A stretch of DNA of 41,728 nucleotides from a virus: IMG/VR virus record IMGVR_UViG_3300027608_001240, positions 1-41,728 of that record; one strand, 5' to 3'. Made by a program: the position numbers and the translations under genes. The notes below the pieces were generated by a model. That model was not told where the DNA came from. It was given only the letters and a program-made list of their open reading frames with translations, and searched no databases. Numbering within the stretch: the stretch's first letter is position 1; each line of letters starts with the position of its first letter. Below, one piece after another: positions 487 through 34,793 of the stretch.

Positions 487-3400
487 TTATTTATAAGTTG
501 AGCCAGCTGACTTCAGCTTGGACATAGTTGCACGTGGTTTGTAAGAACCAGTGCTTTGACCAGTTTTACGACCAGCTGGTTTCTTTTCTTTTTTCTTCAT
601 ATCAGCTGCTGTTTCATCAGCACCTTCTGGATCAACATAATCAGCGCCATATGAACGACCTTTAATTATGGTCTTTCCATCTGGACCTGGAGTATACTCA
701 AGTAAGTGGTCAGCTTCTTCTTTACGAAGAAGTTCAAAGTCATGCCCGTCAACCTTACCATTCTTGTTCTTGTCAAGTTTGTGCTGTTTACCAATTAGTT
801 TTTCTTCTAATGATTGTAAAAACTCTTTATATGATTTCATATTTTCCTCTTTTACTTTTTTAATTTTTGATACTGTCTTAGGTGCTGGTTCCCATTTTTC
901 TTCATGGGGTGTGTCACCAGCGTGGTTTACTTTATCTACGTTAACACCTTTCTGCGCAGTGGCTTCACTACGTAGTGCGCGACCAATTGCTACGTTTTTT
1001 TCTCTAGCAGTTTTATGATCAGTGTCAGGAACTGGATTATTAAGTTTATAACGAGCACCACGAGATGCGTCCATCATATTTTTCATTGTTTTGTTTTGTT
1101 TAGCCTGATCAGATTTCTCGTCAAGAACTTCTTCATTAGTTGGCATGCCATTGATTGGCTTCTTAGTTGCTTTATATGCTTTGTGCTCAGGAGTACCTTT
1201 AATATACTTGCGATCAGGTACTGGAGCAACTGGAGTTGGATCTCTCACTTCGTCACCTTTACGGCGATATGCTGATGCTGGCTTTTCGTAGTAGCCCTCA
1301 TTAACTTCAGACTCAGAATACAAGTAGTCAGCTGCAGTTTGAATATAGTCAGTGGCAAGAGTAATCTTAGATTGAACCCATTCTGGCAAATCAGTTTCTG
1401 GCTTTAGACAATCTTTAATCATTTCAGCACAACGTGTTAGCGTTGCCAATTGATTCAAAGCCATGTCGCCTTCATAACCATACTCTTGTTCGTCTTTTTC
1501 TTCCATATTAAGTTCTTCAGTTCTAGTTCTACGACCAGCGAAGTGATGCACACCTCTATTTTTCAACTCAGAACGAGATGCATCATATTCATATGGATTC
1601 TTATGTGCGTTAGATGGGGTATTGCCAAGAGTTTTAACTTTATTGTCAAGTGTTCCTGTTTTCAATTTACCAGCAACTTTATTTGTTGCTCTGTATAAAC
1701 CAGTGTCGCCTTTACCACCATCATCAGCACGACCAGATTTAATATTTTTATTGATATATGATTTTAGAGTTTTTTGATCCAGTTCATGAATATGTTCTAC
1801 TTCGTCTTTTGCTTCTTTGAAGTGAACTACATTACCTTGAACTTTACCTTTACCATGTTCCTTAGAAGCACGATTGGCCAAATCTTCACCAGACATTAAA
1901 GTAGTTCCTTTCGGATTAAGAGTGCTATACCCATGAACTATTGAACGCATTCTTACTTCAGCGTGACCATTGGGATGAAAAGTTGCTTTACCATCATAGT
2001 CTTTTGCCATTTTACGAGCATTTTTATGATGCTCTGAAGATTTATCGTAACCTTCTTCTAATTCAACTTCTTCTTTGACTGGTTTCTTTTTATTAAGTTG
2101 ATCCATTGCACGTTGAGCCAATGAACGAGCAGCATCCATTCCAGTACGATTTGGATTATTAGGTTTCTTAAAATTAGATTTGTATGGTCCATCAAATGGA
2201 ACATCATCTTTCTTAGATTCTTCATTTGTTTGAGATGCTTTTATTGCGTCTGCAGTTGGCGCACCTTTGCTTCCAGGTTTACGCATGCGCTCACCAGAAC
2301 CATTCTCGATACGTTTACGCTTGGCGTGAATGTTATCCCAAAGACCACGTTCACCTTCTTGAATTTCTTCTTTAACTGGCTGATTCATATTCATTTGTTT
2401 ATCATTCTCGCCATTAAAGAATTTAAATCCTTTAATCTTTTTATTCATAGTAGTATCCTTTGATGTTGAACCTGATGGAGCAGAAGTTGTAGTATTCATA
2501 GCGTCAGCACCAGCGATGTTACCTTGAAGAGTACCTTCTTTCATTTGACCATGCTTCTTTAAATCATTGTCAAATTGTTTGTTTGTGGCTTTGTTAATAC
2601 CTTTGAAACGCTTGTCGCCTTTTGCATAATTGCCAGCAGCATCCGCAGCTTTTGCATCTGCGCCAGCAGCAGTTTTATATTTACCTAGAAGATCAGTGGA
2701 TAGTTCATCGATCTGAACTTCTTCTTTGACACCACGAGATTTGGCAGCCATGAATGCGCCAATAGCCATCTTGCGACGTTCATCTTTAGATTTATTATTA
2801 AAGCGAGGGTGTGTTGAAGAAATAAAATCTTTAACCCAAGCAGCAGCACCCATATCAGCACGCAGTTCTTCTTGAACAACTTCTTCTTTAATATTCATAC
2901 CTTTACGCACATCGTTATACATGGCGTCCTTGTGTTCTGGCTTCATCTTTGATGGAGCACCTTTATGGAATTCTGTTTTGTTACCAGAAGCAGCATGTTC
3001 GCGCATTTTACTTGCAGAGATACCAGTAGTACCTTCAGCATCTGGATCACGTTCGCCAGAAGAATGCACAGTAATCTTTTTAAAGTTATAGTGGCCATGA
3101 GCAGCGTCTTTGCCATTATATTTATGAAGTAGATTATGCATCTCTTCATGGCGATCAGAACCAGCAACTACGTGTAGATGTGTTGCTCCAGCAGCATGAG
3201 CAGCTGCAGCATGGTGAAGGATAGTTGGAGATTCTTTGCTGGCAGAACTTACCTTAGTTCCAGGGAATGCGTTCTTAGCGTGAGCAACTTTTTGTTCACC
3301 AGTTAATGGGTTTTTCTTAGCATCTTGGCTATGAGAAACAACAAGACTATGACTTGCGCCATGTTCTTTAGCAACTGAATGTAGTTTGTTAACTACTGCT

Positions 3401-3585
3401 TCGTGACCTGACGTGATTGGGTTCATACGACCAAATGCTAACACGTGGTGCTTTTCAGAACCATGTCCACCTTCATCTTTTTCTTCTTTCATACAGCTGT
3501 CATCCTCGTAAGGTTTAGTACCTTTTTTGCGTTTGTACCCAGTCCAGCAGATACCTTTTTCTTGGAGATCTTTGTAGTTAATCAT
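487..3585 (-). CDS. Modular 1032-aa protein: adenylyltransferase-like domain plus protease-site-punctuated modules (capsid-internal polyprotein candidate)
   Basis: The N-terminus (MINYKDLQEK) resembles a capsid-targeting peptide. Residues about 47-215 form a cytidylyl/adenylyltransferase-like domain with GRMNPITSGH (the T/HxGH site) near 52-61 and GISASKMRE (ISSTxxR-type motif) near 188-196. The remaining about 800 residues are short, Lys/Glu-rich modules: WVKDFISSTHPRF near 250; DELSTDLLGKY near 293 with a second copy (HELDQKTLKSY) near 600; LWDNIHAKRKRIENGSGERM near 415-434; LPEWVQSKITLATDYI near 733; a second targeting-like peptide MKSYKEFLQSLEE at 916-928; and an EF-hand-like loop DKNKNGKVDGHD near 938-949. 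Modules are separated by (I/L/V)-x-E sites: VQE 237-239, IDE 292-294, IQE|G 408-410, LEE|G 509-511, IHE 599-601, VNE|G 761-763, LDE 821-823, LLE 961-963. These match the T4 gp21 protease preference. Processing into pieces is inferred. Confidence 0.75.
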   Translation of the reverse strand: MINYKDLQEKGICWTGYKRKKGTKPYEDDSCMKEEKDEGGHGSEKHHVLAFGRMNPITSGHEAVVNKLHSVAKEHGASHSLVVSHSQDAKKNPLTGEQKVAHAKNAFPGTKVSSASKESPTILHHAAAAHAAGATHLHVVAGSDRHEEMHNLLHKYNGKDAAHGHYNFKKITVHSSGERDPDAEGTTGISASKMREHAASGNKTEFHKGAPSKMKPEHKDAMYNDVRKGMNIKEEVVQEELRADMGAAAWVKDFISSTHPRFNNKSKDERRKMAIGAFMAAKSRGVKEEVQIDELSTDLLGKYKTAAGADAKAADAAGNYAKGDKRFKGINKATNKQFDNDLKKHGQMKEGTLQGNIAGADAMNTTTSAPSGSTSKDTTMNKKIKGFKFFNGENDKQMNMNQPVKEEIQEGERGLWDNIHAKRKRIENGSGERMRKPGSKGAPTADAIKASQTNEESKKDDVPFDGPYKSNFKKPNNPNRTGMDAARSLAQRAMDQLNKKKPVKEEVELEEGYDKSSEHHKNARKMAKDYDGKATFHPNGHAEVRMRSIVHGYSTLNPKGTTLMSGEDLANRASKEHGKGKVQGNVVHFKEAKDEVEHIHELDQKTLKSYINKNIKSGRADDGGKGDTGLYRATNKVAGKLKTGTLDNKVKTLGNTPSNAHKNPYEYDASRSELKNRGVHHFAGRRTRTEELNMEEKDEQEYGYEGDMALNQLATLTRCAEMIKDCLKPETDLPEWVQSKITLATDYIQTAADYLYSESEVNEGYYEKPASAYRRKGDEVRDPTPVAPVPDRKYIKGTPEHKAYKATKKPINGMPTNEEVLDEKSDQAKQNKTMKNMMDASRGARYKLNNPVPDTDHKTAREKNVAIGRALRSEATAQKGVNVDKVNHAGDTPHEEKWEPAPKTVSKIKKVKEENMKSYKEFLQSLEEKLIGKQHKLDKNKNGKVDGHDFELLRKEEADHLLEYTPGPDGKTIIKGRSYGADYVDPEGADETAADMKKKEKKPAGRKTGQSTGSYKPRATMSKLKSAGSTYK
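488..495 (-). promoter_or_regulatory. T4-type late promoter TATAAATA
   Basis: The minus strand reads TATAAATA, the exact T4 late -10 consensus, overlapping the stop of the gene ending at 487 and about 30 bases before the ATG of the 178-459 gene. Only this box is needed by the gp55-type sigma factor in T4. Confidence 0.75.
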
Positions 3586-3586
3586 A

Positions 3587-3871
3587 TTAGCAATTCCACT
3601 TTCTTAGTGCCAATGCTTTACGACTTGGTTCGCCATTTGGTTTCTTCATTGGACCTTCCATGCCACCCATACGTGCACAGAAAGACTTACGGCGATTAGC
3701 AGCTTTGCTACCAGCCTTTAACTTAGATGGTGGAGTAGTAACTGGTGCTTGTAGATTAGCACCTTTAGCATTATATGCGTCACGACCCTTTTGAGTCAAC
3801 CCACCAGTAGAACTTTTATGTCCTTTACCATCGACTGCATATTCAACAAGATATTCTTTAAATGTTAACAT
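3587..3871 (-). CDS. DUF6321-like protein with capsid-targeting N-terminus
   Basis: A 94-residue basic protein. The first ten residues, MLTFKEYLVE, match the pattern of the T4 internal-protein capsid-targeting sequence, with a predicted cut after LVE (residue 10). The rest carries a motif set I associate with DUF6321: GGLTQKGRDAYNAK, PSKLKAGSKAANRRKSFCAR, MGGMEGPMKKPNGEPSRKAL and a C-terminal RKWNC. That family is known from phages and bacteria but has no established function; its high Arg/Lys content would suit nucleic-acid binding inside a head. One base separates it from the next gene downstream and one from the gene upstream, so it belongs to one operon. A sigma70-like match (TTGACT-18-TATAAT) lies inside it. 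Confidence 0.75.
   Translation of the reverse strand: MLTFKEYLVEYAVDGKGHKSSTGGLTQKGRDAYNAKGANLQAPVTTPPSKLKAGSKAANRRKSFCARMGGMEGPMKKPNGEPSRKALALRKWNC
3770..3799 (-). promoter_or_regulatory. Possible intragenic sigma70 promoter (18-bp spacing)
   Basis: The minus strand has TTGACT (3799-3794), 18 bases, then TATAAT (3775-3770), inside the DUF6321-like gene and upstream of the 1032-aa gene. The match is good, but the site is within coding sequence and the spacer differs from the 17 bases seen elsewhere in this window. Confidence 0.3.
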
Positions 3872-3872
3872 A

Positions 3873-4916
3873 TTATACAGCCTTTCCTGCGGATTTTAGT
3901 GAACTTAGTGGATCACTCTGTGAATCAAACTTGTGTGCTTGAGAAGCAAACTTCTTACCGTTATGATAGAAGTGAACCGAACCACCACTTGATTTAACTG
4001 AAAGATTCTTATGGTCTTTTAGGATATGCTCATGATCTTCGCTTGGGTTACTAGCATGGTGTTGAACACCCTTAGCAGTTTTGTAAGTAGTATGCTTGAT
4101 AAAGGTATGACCCTTTTCTTGAGCAGGTGTTTTATGAGCATGAAGGACTTCACGGATATGCTTAACTACGTGCTCATGATTACCAGAATCTAAATGGTGT
4201 TGCAGTTCAGCAGCATGACTGTGAGCAACTTTATGTAATAGTGCTTTGTTGCGTTCTTTAACATCAGCGTGCATCTTAGGATCTGCTTTGGCAGCTTCTT
4301 TACGTTGGTCTTTATTTTTACCAACCAACTGAGGATGCGCTTTAATAATCGCAGCTTTGTGCGCAGCGAAATGCTCTTTGGCTTTTGATCCACCAGATTC
4401 CATACCAAGACTTGATGATGGAATATTCTTGCTAGAGTTATCGCTAACTTTTAAACTTACGCCATGGTGAGTTACTTTACCAGTCTTAGGATGCTTAGTA
4501 GAAACATAAACATCAGAAGAATCTTCTTTCTGAGTTGCTTTGTGACCAGTTACCTTTTCTGTATCTCCAGGTTTGGAAGTATGAGTAACCGCATGGACTG
4601 CATGACCTGGATGAGTAGACTCAATATGCTTTTTAATATGATCAGCAGCAGACTTAGCATTGGTATCAATGCGCTTATAGTCAGCTGGGTGGATTGCTTT
4701 CTTTAAACGATCATGAGTTTGTACAGGAGTTTCGCCTTGTTCGTTAACATGCTTCTCCATATGTTTGCCATTATTAAGATGCTTGCCAGTTAGAATCTCG
4801 TGTAGAACACCCTTAGTGTTATTTGAAACACCACCTTCTTTAGAAGCATCATCTGCTGCTTCTGTTAGTTCTTGGAAATAAGTTTCTTCAACTATGAATG
4901 TTTTAAAGGATTTCAT
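3873..4916 (-). CDS. Capsid-targeted protein with possible PD-(D/E)xK nuclease-like core
   Basis: 347 residues. It begins MKSFKTFIVE, a capsid-targeting-like peptide with an IVE cut site at residue 10 and a second site, LTE|A, at 17-19. The body is His- and Lys-rich. It has a helix with LHEIL (E40), then SSDVYV (D135) and HGVSLK (S154-L-K156). An acidic residue, an Asp-containing strand and an S-x-K strand in this order resemble a PD-(D/E)xK nuclease core, but with Ser in place of the usual Asp/Glu, so this is a hypothesis. I recall similar hypothetical proteins in marine T4-like phages. The start overlaps the upstream ligase-like gene by four bases (ATGA type), which suggests the two proteins are made together. 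Function is otherwise unknown. Confidence 0.65.
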   Translation of the reverse strand: MKSFKTFIVEETYFQELTEAADDASKEGGVSNNTKGVLHEILTGKHLNNGKHMEKHVNEQGETPVQTHDRLKKAIHPADYKRIDTNAKSAADHIKKHIESTHPGHAVHAVTHTSKPGDTEKVTGHKATQKEDSSDVYVSTKHPKTGKVTHHGVSLKVSDNSSKNIPSSSLGMESGGSKAKEHFAAHKAAIIKAHPQLVGKNKDQRKEAAKADPKMHADVKERNKALLHKVAHSHAAELQHHLDSGNHEHVVKHIREVLHAHKTPAQEKGHTFIKHTTYKTAKGVQHHASNPSEDHEHILKDHKNLSVKSSGGSVHFYHNGKKFASQAHKFDSQSDPLSSLKSAGKAV

Positions 4917-6136
4917 TTACGCACCTTTAGTAAGTTAGATCTTGCGAACTCAGCACGATTTACCAACTTAGAAGGCTCATGTTTACCATTGTGTTCGTGG
5001 TTAATAACGAAACCTTCTGGCTTGGATTCTTTACCTTCGATATGGTGTTCATAATTGCTATGACCACTTTCTAGAGACTTAACCAAAGAGTTCTTTGCAG
5101 CAGCAAGATGGTTATGTGCAGTCAATACATGTTCGTAATGACTCTTATTCTTTTCTACGTGATCAACTTCTTCTTTACCCTTGGCACGTTTTGCGTCTTG
5201 GGACTTTTCAGTCTTAACACCAGCAACTTGTTTAGCGTGGTGTGTTTCAAGATGGGCTTTGAAATCTTTTACGTTTGGAGTAGTGTTATTGCGAACAGTT
5301 GAGTTAATGTAAGTGGCTAGATGACCATGATCACCACTATGATCTGCGTGAACTGCTTTGTACATCTTGTCGCCATGAGTATCATGAACTGCTTTGGCAG
5401 CGTTCAGATGCTTATGGAACTCATCTTGATTTGCTTGAGAGTGAGACGCTTTGCTAGTATCGTAGCTGGCATCGTGATGGTGAACATCAGGATGATCTTT
5501 AAACTCATGATGATCAACTTCGTGGTGAGCAGACATTGATTGAATGTCTTTACCGTGGTATTGAGTATGAACTGCTACACCTACTTTTGCTTTTGCAGCT
5601 TTCTTGGCTTCATCGCCAGAAGCAGTATAGGTAATAGTGTTTGGCGTAAAAGATGCTTTGCCAGTTTTCTTATCGTGCTTAACATCACCTTCAGAGTGCA
5701 TAATGTCACCTTGATAAACTTTACCCTTTGGAGTAACTTTAGGTAAGTGATGTAACGCAGCTTTTAATTTAGCAGCAAGACCTGGAGCATGGCCATGGTT
5801 CTTATCGATATCAGCATCAGTGTGATTAATCTTTGGGTCTTTGTTGAAAGCAGATTTAGAAGCAACAAAGAACTTACCAGTCTTAGGATGAGAACCGAAA
5901 ACTACAGCTGGTGAACCATCATACTTTGTAGTAAGATTAGCATTATTCTTACCAGACTTCATGTGCTCATGAGCATGAGACAAAGCACCATGAGCATGTT
6001 CAAAGCCATCGTGACCATGCATTAATGGACGATCTTCAGGATGCGTAATGTGCTTGAGTTTAGTACCTTCTTGAGTATCTGATCCATGACCCAATTTATC
6101 TTTTTCTTCTTTTAAGTATGTAGTAAATCTTTTCAT
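4913..6136 (-). CDS. Capsid-targeted nucleotidyltransferase/ligase-like protein (DUF6267-like)
   Basis: 407 residues, strikingly His-rich. It begins MKRFTTYLKE, a capsid-targeting-like peptide with an LKE|E cut site at residue 10. It then shows signs of the covalent nucleotidyltransferase (DNA/RNA ligase, capping enzyme) fold: K71-Y-D-G74 as motif I (KxDG), GKFFVASKSAFNK shortly after, YQGDIM near 141-146 in a motif III-like place, EGFVI at 374-378 as motif IV, and KLV at 390-392 as motif V. The set matches, from memory, a cyanophage family named DUF6267. An activity that joins or adenylylates nucleic acids or proteins is inferred, and no assay is known to me. An early-type promoter lies just upstream (6156-6184), making this the first gene of the capsid-cargo operon. 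Confidence 0.7.
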   Translation of the reverse strand: MKRFTTYLKEEKDKLGHGSDTQEGTKLKHITHPEDRPLMHGHDGFEHAHGALSHAHEHMKSGKNNANLTTKYDGSPAVVFGSHPKTGKFFVASKSAFNKDPKINHTDADIDKNHGHAPGLAAKLKAALHHLPKVTPKGKVYQGDIMHSEGDVKHDKKTGKASFTPNTITYTASGDEAKKAAKAKVGVAVHTQYHGKDIQSMSAHHEVDHHEFKDHPDVHHHDASYDTSKASHSQANQDEFHKHLNAAKAVHDTHGDKMYKAVHADHSGDHGHLATYINSTVRNNTTPNVKDFKAHLETHHAKQVAGVKTEKSQDAKRAKGKEEVDHVEKNKSHYEHVLTAHNHLAAAKNSLVKSLESGHSNYEHHIEGKESKPEGFVINHEHNGKHEPSKLVNRAEFARSNLLKVRK

Positions 6137-6216: not shown

Positions 6217-6663
6217 TTATCCTATTTTCTTAGCAGAAGCACGTAAGAACCAAGCATGCTTCTGATGAGTATCTATTCTATCAGCTATAAAATTACAAAC
6301 ACCTTGTTGCTTTTCTGAGTTAGCAATAGTGAACACTTTATTTAGGCTGGCCAAGACTTCTTCGTTTGCAGCAATAAGACATACGAATATATCTTTTAGT
6401 AACTCAACACGAGTAGTTTCTTCTTCTAGTGTTTTATACTTGTAAAGTTCATCAATGCTTACTGGAGCATAGTCGTCTAACTTACGTAGAAGTTCAGCGA
6501 TTGGATCTACAGAATTATAAACATCAGTATAAAGGTCACCAAAGAAATCGTGATACTGAGTAAACTCAATACCCTCAATATTCCAGTGAAACTGATGCGC
6601 TTTGTAATACATTACAGTAGCATTTGCCAGCAATACTTTAATTGCTGTTGTTAACTCATTCAT
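6217..6663 (-). CDS. Dps-like ferritin-fold protein
   Basis: 148 residues, within the usual Dps length. The motif HQFHWNIEG followed by a His-containing helix (QYHDFFGDLY) and VDPIAE reproduces the Dps ferroxidase pattern: a HW pair, then a His, with Asp and Glu at +15 and +19 from it. The position equivalent to E. coli Dps Asp67 (+4) is Gly, with Asp at +5. From memory this also occurs in phage relatives, so iron oxidation may be altered. The family binds iron and DNA and protects DNA from oxidative damage. The start overlaps the stop of the upstream adenylyltransferase-like gene (ATGA). It has no capsid-targeting peptide. Whether it acts in the infected cell or the virion is unknown. Confidence 0.8.
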   Translation of the reverse strand: MNELTTAIKVLLANATVMYYKAHQFHWNIEGIEFTQYHDFFGDLYTDVYNSVDPIAELLRKLDDYAPVSIDELYKYKTLEEETTRVELLKDIFVCLIAANEEVLASLNKVFTIANSEKQQGVCNFIADRIDTHQKHAWFLRASAKKIG

Positions 6664-7523
6664 TGCACAACTCCAGTATTCGAAAACGCATCAAATGTTC
6701 TAGAAGTAAAATCTTGTGGAGCCAAACCAGCTGGCTGCTCAGTATTTCTAACAGTAGATTTAAAAGACTTCAGCTTTTTCTTTTCTACTTTCTTCTCTAC
6801 TAATTTAACATTCTGAATCCACTTGCTGACTAATTTGCCAGTAGATTCTTTTAGCAATAGGTGATTAGAACCACGCTTGACAATTTCATATTGTTCGCCA
6901 TCGGATTCTACTTGCTCACCAACATTAAAGATTTCGCCACGGAAATATTGTTCACGCAGATCGTCTTTAACTAACTTAATTTCTTCTTTGATTGGCTCAA
7001 GTCCAGAACCAATTCTAATATCATTCATCAATCTACGAGAATCAATATCACGTATTGCTGATGGTAGATTCTTTTTAAAATCTTCGTATAAACCTTTGAT
7101 CGCATAATTACGAGTAGCATCTTCGCTATCTGGATCTTTGTCCATGGCTGATATGACTGTAGCTTCCTTTAGAGATTTCTTCATGGAAGCTACTTTATCT
7201 GCGCTGGTAACAATGATAACATTGCGATAGGTTTCTTTTAGTTTAGCAACCACTTCACTTATATTGTCAGAGTAAGTATTGAACTGCGTGTTCGGAAACA
7301 ACGTATTCAAATACTGTAATTTCTTTTCTACAATTAAGGGATTCTTTTTCGCATCGCTAGAATCGGATGCATAAATGGCGTAGCTGGCATTCTTTTGCTC
7401 AGCTACAGATTTGACCGCCTTGATTAGAAGTTCATGTCCGATAGTCGGAGGGTTAAACTTCGAACAGGCTAGAACTATCGTTTTACTCGGTAGTTCTCTG
7501 ATTAGTTGTCTATAATCTTTCAT
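6660..7523 (-). CDS. Adenylyltransferase-like protein with capsid-targeting N-terminus and C-terminal SH3/KOW-like module
   Basis: 287 residues. It starts MKDYRQLIRE, a targeting-like peptide with an IRE site at residue 10. The domain that follows has KFNPPTIGH, the T/HxGH nucleotide-binding signature of nicotinate and pantetheine-phosphate adenylyltransferases, and SDAKKNPL shared with the 1032-aa protein (DAKKNPL). The second catalytic motif (ISSTxxR; GISASKMR in the paralogue) is not recognisable: after DKDPDSEDATR the sequence continues NYAIKG. The domain may therefore be inactive or altered. Residues about 190-245 (LREQYFRGEIFNVGEQV, RGSNHLLL, KWIQNV) resemble a small beta-barrel module of other T4-like virion proteins. 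A CTAAATA late box lies about 31 bases upstream of the ATG. Confidence 0.7.
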   Translation of the reverse strand: MKDYRQLIRELPSKTIVLACSKFNPPTIGHELLIKAVKSVAEQKNASYAIYASDSSDAKKNPLIVEKKLQYLNTLFPNTQFNTYSDNISEVVAKLKETYRNVIIVTSADKVASMKKSLKEATVISAMDKDPDSEDATRNYAIKGLYEDFKKNLPSAIRDIDSRRLMNDIRIGSGLEPIKEEIKLVKDDLREQYFRGEIFNVGEQVESDGEQYEIVKRGSNHLLLKESTGKLVSKWIQNVKLVEKKVEKKKLKSFKSTVRNTEQPAGLAPQDFTSRTFDAFSNTGVVQ

Positions 7524-9981: not shown

Positions 9982-10414
9982 TTCTAATTTCCTCGATCAT
10001 TTTAATCAGTTCTTCTTTACTAAAAACCCACACACGTCCACGGAATGAATGGGTATCTGTATTTATTTCTGTTTTCTTAGTAAAGGTCATCTTACTAGTA
10101 ACTTCTTCTGAAGCATGCTTTGCTAGATTATGCTTAATCTCAGTGGCATAATCTACATTACTTTCTCGAAGTTTCATAAGTTCAAACTCTTGAACTCTAT
10201 GCTGAACAGTTATCTCATTCAACTGATAACGATCTAAAATAACTTCAGCTGGAGTGCGCATTGGTGTGATACTGCCAGTTCCACCAGCTGTAGTAGTAAT
10301 TGTGCTTGCATGACCAATAGTAACATGAGGTGAAGTTGCTATTGTAATACAACCACCTGCATCTTCATACATAGCACCTGTAAGTCCAGTCATCTGCGAT
10401 TTAGTCATTGCCAT
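9971..10414 (-). CDS. Conserved T4-like phage protein, function unknown
   Basis: 147 residues, starting MAMTKSQMTGLTGAMYEDAG. The N-terminal half is Gly/Thr/Ser-rich and looks like an exposed beta or flexible region. The C-terminal half is helical and charged (VQEFELMKLRESNVDYATEI) and ends FRGRVWVFSKEELIKMIEEI. I recall close relatives in marine T4-like phages with no known function. The start lies on the stop codon of the radical SAM gene (TAATG arrangement) and the stop overlaps the kinase gene, so it is part of the modification operon. A structural role is also possible. Confidence 0.6.
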   Translation of the reverse strand: MAMTKSQMTGLTGAMYEDAGGCITIATSPHVTIGHASTITTTAGGTGSITPMRTPAEVILDRYQLNEITVQHRVQEFELMKLRESNVDYATEIKHNLAKHASEEVTSKMTFTKKTEINTDTHSFRGRVWVFSKEELIKMIEEIRNGI

Positions 10415-11910
10415 TATAAAACTCCAATCAATTGTTTATATTCATCTATACGTATAGAATTCATTTTTGGTATATCATACTTTTGATTTAACTCAATCAT
10501 TGTATGTTTATACAAATCTTTAATATCAATGCCAATATTTAAATTTGTAATCATCTGAAATTCAGCAACTTTATTCCTAGGACTAATTATACTATTAAAT
10601 TCATTGGCAATCAAATTACATTTTTCATAACTTAGGTTTTGTTCTTGCAAAGTCCAATTCATCCAATTAGTTTTATCATTGAACTCATATCCATAAATCT
10701 CTGGCTTTAAACTAAACTCTGAAGTATATGCAGCAAGATCGTGATCAGGTTTTCTTGGGAATAGATATAATGGATAAAATGATATATGTTGCAGTGGATT
10801 ATTAGATTCCATGCACCAAGAAATTAATTCTTCAAAGTACGATTCAGTATCGTGTGGTAATCCTAAGATAAATCCTGCGCCAATATTTACAGAATCTTTC
10901 CATTCTTCTGCCAACCAATATAATCTATCTTTAACCTTAGAAGGATGTAAACCTTTACCAATAGATTTAGCACTATTTGGTTGAATAGTTTCCAAACCAA
11001 AATAAGTTCCAATCAATCCCATCTCTTTTAATAGAGTGGCTTGGTGAGGATATTTGTGTATCAAATCAACTCTAAGATATGCGCTGAATTTTAATTTGAA
11101 TGGCAATTCAGTAATTATCTTATGTAAAGCATCAATCTTATCGTTATCATCATTAAATGTATCATCTGTCATATAATATGATTCAGTGCCATACAGTTCC
11201 CAATTCTGAATCATCTCATCTTTAATTTCAGAAGGATCTCTAAGATATGTCCCTTTCTTTTTGCCTAGCAAAGGATATGAACAGAATTTACATTTAAAGA
11301 TGCACCCTCTAGCAAGTTCCATTGGTAAACCTTCTTTATGAATAACGTATTGGTCTTTCCAATTAGTTTTAATGTTATCCATTTTTGGTTCATCAAAATT
11401 AGTAGATTCTACTATCTGTGTGTCATTAACATATTTTAATTTAATTTCTGAACCAGTTTGAATATGCTTTGTTAATTCTATAATAGAAGTATCAGCATAA
11501 CCAATAACATAATAATCAATATTTTCATCCGCTTGGAAGTATGGTGCTTTACCGCCACCGTATATTAGTTTGGCTTTGCTATTATCTTTTATGTATTTAA
11601 TAATAGATTCAATGTCATCTAATGAAGTATAGTACATTCTTTCTTTTTGAGTTTGTAAAAAAGAATTGCTATTATTACTCCAGAAAAACGTAGAAGAAAA
11701 ACCAACCCATAATGTTTCTTCAGAAAGATGTTTACTCAATGCAGTTTTTATTTCTTCTACAGACATATGAATAATATAATCTAAAACAAAAGTAGAATAT
11801 CCTTCTTGCTGTAGCGCAGATGCTACTCTATACGCACCCAAATTTCTTTGGATATGTGGTTGATTGGGGTTAGTGTGAGTTCCGCCAGTTAATATAATAC
11901 ATTGCGCCAT
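10414..11910 (-). CDS. Radical SAM protein with B12-binding-like N-terminal domain
   Basis: 498 residues. The 4Fe-4S motif CxxxCxxC is C203-IFK-C207-KF-C210, followed by a radical SAM barrel pattern (YYMTDDTFNDD, FSAYLRVDLI, GLIGTYFGLETIQPNSAKSI, GAGFILGLPHDT). The first about 170 residues (MAQCIILTGGTH, YRVASALQQEGYSTFVLD, AKLIYGGGKAP, YVIGYAD) resemble a cobalamin-binding Rossmann domain, but I do not see a DxHxxG motif, so cobalamin may not be bound. Such proteins perform methylations, methylthiolations and C-C or C-S bond formation. In this operon, next to a DNA hypermodification-like protein and amidoligase genes, I infer action on a modified base or a peptide. The start and stop share bases with both neighbours (TAATG). 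Confidence 0.85.
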   Translation of the reverse strand: MAQCIILTGGTHTNPNQPHIQRNLGAYRVASALQQEGYSTFVLDYIIHMSVEEIKTALSKHLSEETLWVGFSSTFFWSNNSNSFLQTQKERMYYTSLDDIESIIKYIKDNSKAKLIYGGGKAPYFQADENIDYYVIGYADTSIIELTKHIQTGSEIKLKYVNDTQIVESTNFDEPKMDNIKTNWKDQYVIHKEGLPMELARGCIFKCKFCSYPLLGKKKGTYLRDPSEIKDEMIQNWELYGTESYYMTDDTFNDDNDKIDALHKIITELPFKLKFSAYLRVDLIHKYPHQATLLKEMGLIGTYFGLETIQPNSAKSIGKGLHPSKVKDRLYWLAEEWKDSVNIGAGFILGLPHDTESYFEELISWCMESNNPLQHISFYPLYLFPRKPDHDLAAYTSEFSLKPEIYGYEFNDKTNWMNWTLQEQNLSYEKCNLIANEFNSIISPRNKVAEFQMITNLNIGIDIKDLYKHTMIELNQKYDIPKMNSIRIDEYKQLIGVL

Positions 11911-32665: not shown

Positions 32666-34135
32666 TTATTTACGGTCAAATTTTACTACAAGTTTATTTT
32701 GTTCCAACAATACCTTATGATCAATATAAGATTGTTTTTCAATGTTTGCTAGGTAGTCTTCATATATTGTATGTTGTTCAGTTTTAACATCGCCATGTGT
32801 TTCTAATAACCGATCTCGTAAGAAGTCTTTATCAAACAACTCTAACCCAGCCATGACCTGAGCCCAGTTTGGCGCAGTAAACATATTATACATGCCACTA
32901 AACTTATGCGTTTGTGGTAAACATTTTGTAAACAATTCTAAATTGTGTTCAATAAAATTAGTCTTAGTCATTCTCTCTGGGAGAGTCTTCCAGAACTCAG
33001 TATCATTACGTTTAGTCATATAATGTAATTGAACAAAGTCAACTATGTTATCAAAACATGCTATGAACTTTACATTATAATCATCAGCGATAGATCTATC
33101 TATAAACCATTCCTCTAGCATATCGCATAAGCCAAACGATTGAAGAATTGAATTACCAATGCTTGATGCTTCTAATGGTTCAACAAATGATGCAGACAGA
33201 CCAATACTTACGCAATTATTAATCCATAATTTATCTACACGACCTGCTTCAAATTTAATATCCTTTGCTACTTTGACTTCTTCAGTATAGAATGACTGAA
33301 CCTCATCGTGTGCTTTTGTTGCATCAATAAAGTTGTCATCAAACACATAACCATTACCATACCTACCTTGAGTAGAAATCCTCCAATTCCAACCAGAAGA
33401 TAATGCACGAGATAGGGTATAAGGTTTAAGATCTGTAATATCATTAGTAGGAAATGCCAATGCATGATTCATTGGTAGGTATTTCTTATAAGAAATCCAC
33501 TTAGCCCCAACCTTGGTAGCAATTACTCGCTTAAAACCACTACTGTCAATAAACAAATCGGCAGAATACTTGGTGTCATCTTCTGCAATAATATAATTAA
33601 CATCACCAGTTTCAGTTAATGTTATTTCTTTGATTGTAGAATTAATTACATCAATCTTTCTCTCAGAGCATAATTTATGTAGATATGCATTCAACTTAAA
33701 TGTATTAAAATGGTATTGATTTACAGTAAATAAACCGCCACCATAATCAACCAAAGAAGTTTCTAATAAAATATCTTCAGTTTTTATGTTATCAGTGATT
33801 AAAGTTTTTGCAAATGCGTTACTATTGACAGCTTGATTATATGAATAGAATGGATGGCTTAATGCGTGGAAATAACTTTTACCATCACCATTCCAATTCT
33901 CAAATTTAATACCCTTCTTGAGAGCACCATCAGTTTCTCTGACAAGGTTGCGAATATCAATCTTACAATACTCAGACCATCGTCTCCAGTGTTCAGTTGA
34001 ACCTTCTCCTACTCCAATAATTCCAACAGAATCTGATTCAATAACTCTAACTGAATAGTTTGGAAATGTTTGTTTAATTGTAATTGCAGAAATTAAACCA
34101 GCAGTTCCCCCACCAAGAACAATAATGCTCTTCAC
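32666..34135 (-). CDS. Flavin-dependent tryptophan-halogenase-like protein
   Basis: About 489 residues from the GTG at 34135, chosen because GAGG lies six bases upstream and one base separates it from the clamp stop; the frame opens earlier at a TTG codon (34165). Signatures: VLGGGTAG (FAD site, 8-13), GVGEGSTEHW, ALKKGIKFENW with the lysine near the catalytic Lys of PrnA-type enzymes, GWNWRIS at about 248-254 (the WxWxI motif, with Ser where Pro is usual), and FVEPLEASSIG with the catalytic Glu. It may halogenate an indole-like substrate, or be a diverged flavoprotein with another use. Lying between clamp and clamp-loader genes, it looks like an accessory insertion. Confidence 0.82.
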   Translation of the reverse strand: MKSIIVLGGGTAGLISAITIKQTFPNYSVRVIESDSVGIIGVGEGSTEHWRRWSEYCKIDIRNLVRETDGALKKGIKFENWNGDGKSYFHALSHPFYSYNQAVNSNAFAKTLITDNIKTEDILLETSLVDYGGGLFTVNQYHFNTFKLNAYLHKLCSERKIDVINSTIKEITLTETGDVNYIIAEDDTKYSADLFIDSSGFKRVIATKVGAKWISYKKYLPMNHALAFPTNDITDLKPYTLSRALSSGWNWRISTQGRYGNGYVFDDNFIDATKAHDEVQSFYTEEVKVAKDIKFEAGRVDKLWINNCVSIGLSASFVEPLEASSIGNSILQSFGLCDMLEEWFIDRSIADDYNVKFIACFDNIVDFVQLHYMTKRNDTEFWKTLPERMTKTNFIEHNLELFTKCLPQTHKFSGMYNMFTAPNWAQVMAGLELFDKDFLRDRLLETHGDVKTEQHTIYEDYLANIEKQSYIDHKVLLEQNKLVVKFDRK

Positions 34136-34136
34136 A

Positions 34137-34793
34137 TTAAACCTCAAATGTAGAATCTGCCTCAACTGCTACATAATAAACTAGATCGCCTGCACCTTTG
34201 AAGCGAGAGATCTTCTTGCTGGAAATAGACACTTGATAGTCACCTGGAATCATCTTTAGGTTTTCTACCTTCAAATTAACTTTGAACTTCTTCTCAGTTG
34301 CGCCCACTGCGGAGTTATAAGAGTTGCCAGTGGCATTCTTTTTATCACCAACAACTACAGCAATAGTTGAACCATCACCAACGATTGATACGTCAGAAGC
34401 ACGTAATACAGAAGCAGTTCGTTGAATCATGCTGAGCATATTAGCACTCATAGGGAATTCAATTTCTGCATCAGGGAAGGTAATTGCTTTTTGCGGGGCA
34501 GTTAGTACGCTTGCATCGGCTGCAAAATACTTAATGCTGTTCCCACCTTGTTCAATCGTTACCCACTTGTCATTGAATGTCAATTCTGGATCTTCAAACA
34601 AAGACATGGCACCGAGGAACTCATTGAGGTCATAGATACCAAAGTCGGGGAATGTTTCAGTAACAACTGCATCAGCCATTACGTTTTTCTGAGCCGAGAT
34701 AGTGGCTAGTTTATTACCAGACTTCAAAAGCAAATTGCTGTTAATGCCAGCAAAGTTCTTGATCAATCCTACGGTTTCTTTAGAGAGTTTCAT
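34137..34793 (-). CDS. 45: Sliding clamp gp45
   Basis: 218 residues (T4: 228). The opening MKLSKETVGLIKNFAGINSN and ITLSKKISRFK-like ISSKKISRFKGAGDLVYYVA match gp45. It is a trimeric ring that tethers the polymerase and activates late transcription. It is preceded by a perfect sigma70 promoter (34834-34862), showing it can be expressed on its own. Confidence 0.95.
   Translation of the reverse strand: MKLSKETVGLIKNFAGINSNLLLKSGNKLATISAQKNVMADAVVTETFPDFGIYDLNEFLGAMSLFEDPELTFNDKWVTIEQGGNSIKYFAADASVLTAPQKAITFPDAEIEFPMSANMLSMIQRTASVLRASDVSIVGDGSTIAVVVGDKKNATGNSYNSAVGATEKKFKVNLKVENLKMIPGDYQVSISSKKISRFKGAGDLVYYVAVEADSTFEV

Follow-up and report, generated by a model that had tools for sequence, protein, structure and literature searches.

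A probable capsid-targeted modular precursor with protease-like sites at its module borders in a T4-like myophage

We describe a protein of 1032 amino acids (aa), P0001, encoded by an open reading frame (ORF) on the minus strand at positions 487-3585 of a 41,728-base fragment of a T4-like myophage (IMG/VR record IMGVR_UViG_3300027608_001240; the whole fragment is called the window below). The best-supported reading of its sequence is that P0001 is probably a capsid-targeted precursor, which the prohead protease would cleave into several parts. The chain is modular, with at least nine small modules standing behind an N-terminal tag of the head-targeting type. An initial annotation of the window had already given the position and the length of the ORF, while the strand is corrected here to minus, the plus strand across these positions being riddled with stops; its reading of the product as a polyprotein is supported by the sequence comparisons below.

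Protease-like sites at the module borders

The comparison was made with 70 IMG/VR relatives from a scan of viral contigs, those of full length having 757-1141 aa, and the borders were analysed on 92 dereplicated proteins, with the ends of the local alignments among them taken as breakpoints. The local matches between P0001 and its relatives form a mosaic, where the segments are shuffled, deleted or moved and occur in different orders, numbers and genes. As many as 329 of the 709 breakpoints lie within 6 residues of an [ILV]xE, compared with 170 expected. Since the linkers are rich in E, EE and E.[ILV] are likewise raised near breakpoints, and plain [ILV]xE near borders, being weak as proof, was replaced by an order-sensitive test, in which the residues were shuffled within each border window, with the residue following the Glu (P1') and other proteins used as controls. 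In the latter test [ILV]xE[GAS] was observed 32-40 times at borders versus 12-13 times after shuffling (2.6-3.0-fold, z 5.9-7.1), and under stricter dereplication 21.1 versus 6.6 times (3.2-fold, z 5.9), with [IL]xE[GAS] at 3.6-fold, where it should be noted that homologous borders are not independent and thus the z-scores, here and below, are inflated and the significance values are upper limits. Windows in the module interiors were near flat for [ILV]xE[GAS] (1.0-1.7-fold), the motif controls [GAS]E.[ILV], [ILV]E[GAS], [ILV]..E[GAS], [ILV].K[GAS], [ILV].D[GAS] and polar.E[GAS] gave 0.3-1.3 at borders, and the other proteins encoded on these contigs gave 1.11-fold (z 0.6). For the cassette family the values were 2.19-fold for [ILV]xE[GAS] and 2.70-fold for [IL]xE[GAS] (z 10.5). 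Moreover, Gly occupies P1' at 12.5% of the border sites versus 4.2% elsewhere, and Pro at 0 of 423 versus 9 of 334.

The individual modules behave in the same way. A site is present at most 5 aa upstream of the LWDNIH module in 16/16 unique contexts (4.6 after shuffling), of the GTLQ module in 12/12, of the EF-hand module in 15/15, of DUF6321 in 17/18, of DMGAGA in 8/8 and of KSxQAK in 13/13, the numbers expected from the shuffles being 1.5-6.2 per module; for the module after the LDE-K site (821-823) it is 13/13 versus 6.0. At residue 350, right before the GTLQ module, where the border site MKE-G had been overlooked by the initial annotation, [ILVMF]KE followed by G is seen in these 12/12 unique contexts of the relatives. 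Judged by sequence, the sites fit the prohead-protease rule and are placed at the borders non-randomly and in a motif-specific manner.

A different explanation of these sites is that the modules carry peptide ends with them (LxE followed by G), with the chain being packaged and only its N-terminal peptide removed, while the internal sites are uncut relics. In stand-alone genes the ends of targeting peptides (YLEE-G, YLVE-Y) directly precede the same modules, and thus recombination could move such ends; the E-rich linkers also lift several E-containing motifs at borders. However, most of the internal linkers (KKPVKEEVELEE, KEEVEALDE, KHGQIKE) are unlike targeting peptides, and the preference for Gly or Ala at P1' peaks at the borders. 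In addition, the E is kept while P3 and P2 vary (16/16 for LWDNIH; 12/12 for GTLQ, with L, V, I, M or F at P3), which is unexpected of relics. We consider this explanation quite unlikely.

As for the protease, gp21 of T4 cleaves after L/I-x-E (PMC9026906). A gp21-type protease of family S77 was found in six of 12 relatives' records, namely in six of the seven searched records of at least 60 kb, including all four above 150 kb; one such gene lies at L082 6219-6872. In the capsid precursor gp23, five of the six head clusters of relatives have EALFE, next A or T, and then AP, and in the sixth (L079) it has MLSELAPSN, i.e. LSE followed by LAPSN, likewise an LxE. By analogy with T4, we infer that these LFE and LSE positions are maturation sites.

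N-terminal tag, first domain and link to the virion

The N-terminal tag of P0001 itself, MINYKDLQE, had escaped the initial annotation. It has an aromatic residue at position 4 (Y4), a hydrophobic residue at position 7 (L7) and an LxE-type end, in line with a capsid-targeting sequence (CTS) of T4; in T4 IPIII the first ten residues suffice for targeting, with residues 4 and 7 weighing most (PMC9026906). Similar starts (MITYKELQE, MLTYNELKE, MLSFKEYLVE) are present in neighbours and relatives, and four neighbouring genes each open with a peptide of the T4-targeting type (Table 1).

The adenylyltransferase-like domain that had been proposed to follow is borne out. It matches the PHROG cytidyltransferases (E 6e-57), its best fold matches in PDB are nicotinic acid mononucleotide adenylyltransferases (E 1.6e-4), and both TSGH (58-61) and ISASKMR (189-195) are conserved among the relatives, so that it has the fold and the motifs of a nucleotidyltransferase; Pfam CTP_transf_like scored 14.2, below its cut-off of 21, and a search by sequence for close PDB relatives gave none. 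It is the sole confident part of the structure model, with predicted local distance difference test (pLDDT) values of about 75-90, which fall below 50 at residues 235-243. A syntenic cytidyltransferase of cyanophage S-SM1 starts with MKKFSAFLNE followed by A and has 37% identity to residues 49-234 (E 3e-35). This S-SM1 protein (T4-GC190) and gp21 were detected in purified virions (PMC3037559).

The above data bear on the possibility that the chain is cut but that its pieces are scaffold-like, as with gp22 and gp67 of T4, and mostly leave the head rather than being injected cargo. In T4, gp22 and further core proteins are indeed cut to many fragments that mostly leave (PMC9026906), one module is common to the gene at the gp67 position of relative L078, and the structure model gives no confident fold for much of the chain. 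By contrast, an enzyme fold with retained active-site motifs would be an odd scaffold, the first-domain homologue stays in mature S-SM1 virions (PMC3037559), and the module content differs strongly among the relatives, which is more like variable internal proteins. This possibility is thus judged unlikely, although it is the strongest of the competitors.

The modules as separate genes

Separate genes encoding the modules were sought in the relatives and were found for several of them, several standing behind a targeting peptide. Separate genes of 139-274 aa, in which MISFKEYLEEG or MLTFKNYLEEG is directly followed by the LWDNIH module, have DUF6321 at their end, and in L078 the gene that occupies the gp67 position, flanked by portal and protease, terminates in the 240-288 module. 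In podoviruses the LWDNIH module forms stand-alone genes of about 48-63 aa, with the motif there being GLYANIHAKR. In the Pelagibacter and Roseobacter phages HTVC168P, CRP-804 and Jormungand this gene sits between the scaffolding and capsid genes, while in S-SBP1 and S-CBP4 it comes after the capsid assembly gene and before psbA; in Jormungand the adjacent gene is DUF6321-like. Isolate homologues of the YEGDMA/LPEWVQSK module are present in S-WAM2, S-SM2 and HTVC008M, and for the EF-hand module a search of isolate phages gave no match. Note also that the LWDNIH-DUF6321 pair recurs across phage families, being fused, with DUF6321 behind LWDNIH, in many T4-like relatives and adjacent in Jormungand; the loci noted for this are 3587-3871 of the window and L094 735-974.

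If P0001 were no head protein but a cytoplasmic multidomain accretion of small phage genes near the replication genes, with its N-terminal and Glu motifs coincidental, the location of the gene in that half of the genome which serves replication would be accounted for, as would the fact that most modules have no known function. What this would leave unexplained is the motif-specific border enrichment that the other proteins of these phages lack, the recurrence of targeting-type N-termini across the cassette, the virion-detected homologue in the syntenic cassette and the podovirus genes for a single module that sit between those for scaffold and capsid, and we regard it as very improbable.

A possible internal start

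The internal targeting peptide that had been described as a copy is present (MKSYKEFLQSLEE, 916-928), but rather than a mere copy it looks like a former or active gene start. Nine relatives have a separate gene whose product starts, or nearly starts, with the segment comprising this peptide and the EF-hand-like loop (MKTYKEIAEALKGKQHK..., MQFKSFMEALKGKQHK...), and in the fused form, seen in 14 loci (some near-identical), the Met and the peptide are kept. The ATG is embedded in a block, AAAGAGGRAAMT-ATG-AAATCA-TA, that is common to twelve distinct loci, with L011 and L045 being slightly different and the region farther upstream being variable. The Glu codon in the block is GAG in 7/7 unique contexts versus 8/218 of the other KE[EG] contexts (Fisher p 1.2e-9, uncorrected for shared descent, the rows not being independent), whereas the commonest Glu codon is GAA (77%). 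Since the targeting peptide, the start codon and the ribosome-site-like block persist, the C-terminal part may also be translated alone, i.e. the block may be a ribosome site with an internal start of a 117-aa product; an alternative is that it is a recombination joint spread through recent exchange. In T4, gp21 has an essential second start inside its own gene (PMC9026906). In a separate observation, an otherwise different protein of L045 (9891-12020, a 709-aa ORF) has at residue 618 an internal MKSFKDFITE after GCAGAGGGAACT, the same ribosome-site-like block.

Proposed model and points against it

In the proposed model, whose steps of targeting, cleavage, retention, injection and internal initiation we infer, the gene product would be a prohead-core precursor of the T4-like myophage. 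The tag MINYKDLQE would pull the chain into the assembling prohead, where the gp21/S77-type protease of the phage would cleave the linkers after Glu at [hydrophobic]-x-E, stripping the tag and freeing the folded nucleotidyltransferase from the string of short modules. The short linker peptides would exit the head, while the larger pieces would probably remain inside as internal proteins and pass with the DNA into the next host, as the internal proteins (IPs) and Alt of T4 do. The modules are interchangeable, being gained, lost and moved between neighbouring targeting-peptide genes among the relatives, with the joints at the putative protease sites, and the C-terminal part would be a former gene that became fused. 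More tentatively, and short of what we would call probable, there may be two layers of cargo, the protease-cut full-length precursor and a separately initiated and targeted C-terminal protein (from codon 916), with the sites doubling as recombination joints and the injected cocktails being built by adding or dropping modules.

Several points weigh against cleavage into many pieces, besides the dependence among homologous borders mentioned above. In the 41.7-kb window, which is itself a fragment, there is no protease gene. The virion-detected S-SM1 homologue matches the first domain only. Outside residues 44-234 the structure model is of low confidence, with short helices amid low-confidence linker and 66% of the residues having pLDDT below 50, so that the location of sites in low-confidence stretches is not evidence. 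The border of the KYIKGTPE module has no site in any of 11 contexts (0/11), nor is there a site at the breakpoints around residues 455 and 785; L029/L030/L039, L019 and L033 have lost the internal targeting peptide; and LxE may in part hitch-hike with targeting peptides during shuffling. Within P0001 alone the number of sites barely beats chance, with 16 [ILV]xE versus 10.4 expected by composition (P=0.047) and 10 [IL]xE versus 6.6 (P=0.11), and the mirror motifs E.[ILV] are equally raised. G, A or S follows just 3 of the 16 sites, V is at P3 in 6 of the 16 and M at one border site, which is outside the strict L/I-x-E of T4. The counts in the single protein (P=0.05-0.11, mirror motifs raised alike) were accordingly rejected as proof: by themselves the sites of P0001 would give no support to a polyprotein, and the non-chance signal is present only across the relatives.

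All eight residues listed as sites in the initial annotation (239, 294, 410, 511, 601, 763, 823 and 963) are correct in that each is the Glu of an [ILV]xE motif, with Gly next at 410, 511 and 763. LPE735 was rejected as a cut site, as it sits within the conserved LPEWVQSK motif.

If the model is true, a chain with protease sites as its joints would deliver many small proteins efficiently and at an equal dose, and the cargo set could evolve through module swapping. It would also suggest families of small phage proteins (LWDNIH-type, DUF6321) as head-associated cargo, and it predicts which mature N-termini T4-like phages of marine and fresh waters should have.

Features and genomic setting

The features are collected in Table 1. 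The two copies of the DELSxxxLxxY-type module that had been described were found (IDELSTDLLGKY from 292 and IHELDQKTLKSY from 599), as were the LWDNIHAKRKRI module, the LPEWVQSK module and the EF-hand-like loop; the modules are not uniformly basic as had been thought, the predicted net charge of the pieces ranging from -4 to +9. The loop has the pattern DxNxNGxxDxxD and scores 12.5 bits with Pfam Dockerin_1, below the 22.9 bits for assignment as an EF-hand/dockerin.

Table 1. Features of P0001 and of the genes beside it; all cut sites are putative, as read from the motif.
Feature	Residues	Positions	Strand	Remark
Targeting-peptide-like MINYKDLQE	1-9	3559..3585	-	LQE then K
Nucleotidyltransferase domain (NadD-like adenylyltransferase fold)	44-234	2884..3456	-	TxGH and ISxSxxR motifs
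Putative sites IKE then E, VQE then E	232-239	2869..2892	-	largest breakpoint cluster, 236-242
Module DFxxSxxPRFxxKSKxERRKMAxGAF	240-288	2722..2868	-	resembles C-terminal part of L078 gp67-position gene
Putative sites VKE then E, IDE then L	286-294	2704..2730	-	breakpoints 282-296
DELS-type module A	291-346	2548..2715	-	
Putative site MKE then G	348-350	2536..2544	-	
Module GTLQGN...IKGFKFFNG	351-404	2374..2535	-	
Putative site IQE then G	408-410	2356..2364	-	
LWDNIHAKRKRI (LWDNIH) module	411-452	2230..2355	-	PHROG 16028, E 2e-18
Putative site LEE then G	509-511	2053..2061	-	
Module YDKSSEHHKNARKMAKDYDGKATFHPNGH...	512-590	1816..2052	-	
Putative site IHE then L	599-601	1783..1791	-	
DELS-type module B	599-690	1516..1791	-	within separate targeting-peptide gene of L004
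YEGDMA/LPEWVQSK helical module	699-760	1306..1491	-	helices modelled 690-726, 735-761
Putative site VNE then G	761-763	1297..1305	-	
KYIKGTPE...KPINGMPT module	790-818	1132..1218	-	front border without site (internal negative control)
Putative site LDE then K	821-823	1117..1125	-	
KSDQAKQNKTMKN module	824-880	946..1116	-	
Ribosome-site-like AAAGAGGAAAAT		841..852	-	followed directly by the internal ATG (codon 916)
Internal targeting peptide MKSYKEFLQSLEE	916-928	802..840	-	LEE then K site; possible start of 117-aa product
EF-hand/dockerin-like loop DKNKNGKVDGHD	938-949	739..774	-	
Putative site LLE then Y	961-963	697..705	-	
C-terminal basic module (...SYKPRATMSKLKSAGSTYK)	964-1032	490..696	-	charge +7; conserved end of full-length relatives
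Neighbour, DUF6321 gene		3587..3871	-	MLTFKEYLVE then YAVDGKG; PF19846, E 3e-24
Neighbour gene		3873..4916	-	MKSFKTFIVEE
Neighbour, DUF6267 gene		4913..6136	-	MKRFTTYLKEE; PF19782, E 4e-105
Second nucleotidyltransferase paralogue		6660..7523	-	N-terminus MKDYRQLIREL

The gene content and order of the window are as in S-SM1, running from gp46 to gp43, uvsX and gp41 and then to the cytidyltransferase cassette, with the gene names read from the translations by eye, and the closest matches of the DNA polymerase are to Synechococcus myophages (about 55% identity). Some further observations on the cassette were made. The DUF6267 protein has TTKYDGSPAVVFG, spotted by eye, which is like the KxDG motif of covalent nucleotidyltransferases (ligases), and it is possibly a packaged ligase-like enzyme; a literature search on DUF6321 and DUF6267 found none. 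In the product of the gene that starts with MKSFKTFIVEE, SDVYVS...GVSLKVSD recalls PD-(D/E)xK nucleases, with no significant match in Pfam or PHROGs. Two nucleotidyltransferases near each other, here the first domain of P0001 and the second paralogue, are also present in many relatives. A ferritin-like (Dps-type) gene at 6217-6663, kept in relatives, lies inside the cassette and itself has no targeting peptide. Elsewhere in this T4-like phage, 10414-11910 and 32666-34165 were assigned by eye as a radical-SAM-like protein and a tryptophan-halogenase-like flavin adenine dinucleotide (FAD) protein, respectively.

Comparison with known systems

T4-type phages package and inject internal proteins as single-cargo genes, and the targeting peptide of a T4 internal protein is MKTYQEFIAE. 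Like IPI-III and Alt of T4, P0001 combines a short targeting peptide of this shape at its N-terminus with a Glu-ended site and variable cargo, some of it enzymatic. By contrast, the T4 IPs have a single cargo and a single N-terminal cut (Alt has a C-terminal cut too), while P0001 has at least nine modules in one chain, sites at most joints and a further targeting peptide inside the chain. The open-access literature searched yielded no account of an internal 'polyprotein' of the T4 type.

With T4 gp22, gp67 and gp68, which gp21 cuts into multiple fragments, P0001 shares several LxE sites per precursor, and one module is shared with the L078 gene mentioned above. The fragments of the T4 proteins mostly leave the head, whereas P0001 has an enzyme domain that is folded, as well as modules that recombine and are also found as separate genes; moreover, its gene is in another cassette, with neither the gp20-gp23 position nor overall homology placing it in that family. 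The phage polyvalent proteins (Iyer et al. 2017, PMC5512222) are similar in having many domains per chain and strong domain shuffling, and in that they are probably packaged and delivered at infection. They often have their own peptidase and known conflict domains, while P0001 has no match to a peptidase domain in Pfam or PHROGs, so that its cutting would rely on the prohead protease; one enzyme domain is recognised in it (by Pfam, PHROGs and PDB folds).

The head proteins of the phiKZ/SPN3US type with long propeptides (PMC10052503) follow the same general protease logic, with cuts after x-x-E and several cuts per substrate, but there the cuts fragment a long N-terminal propeptide, whereas the sites of P0001 separate distinct recurring modules. 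Finally, the S-SM1 virion cytidyltransferase T4-GC190 has a homologous enzyme domain, a targeting-type N-terminus and the same gene neighbourhood, and it was detected in virions; it differs in being a separate protein of 387 aa that is unfused to a module chain. P0001 is thus a variation on the internal head proteins and core precursors of the T4 type rather than a new kind of system.

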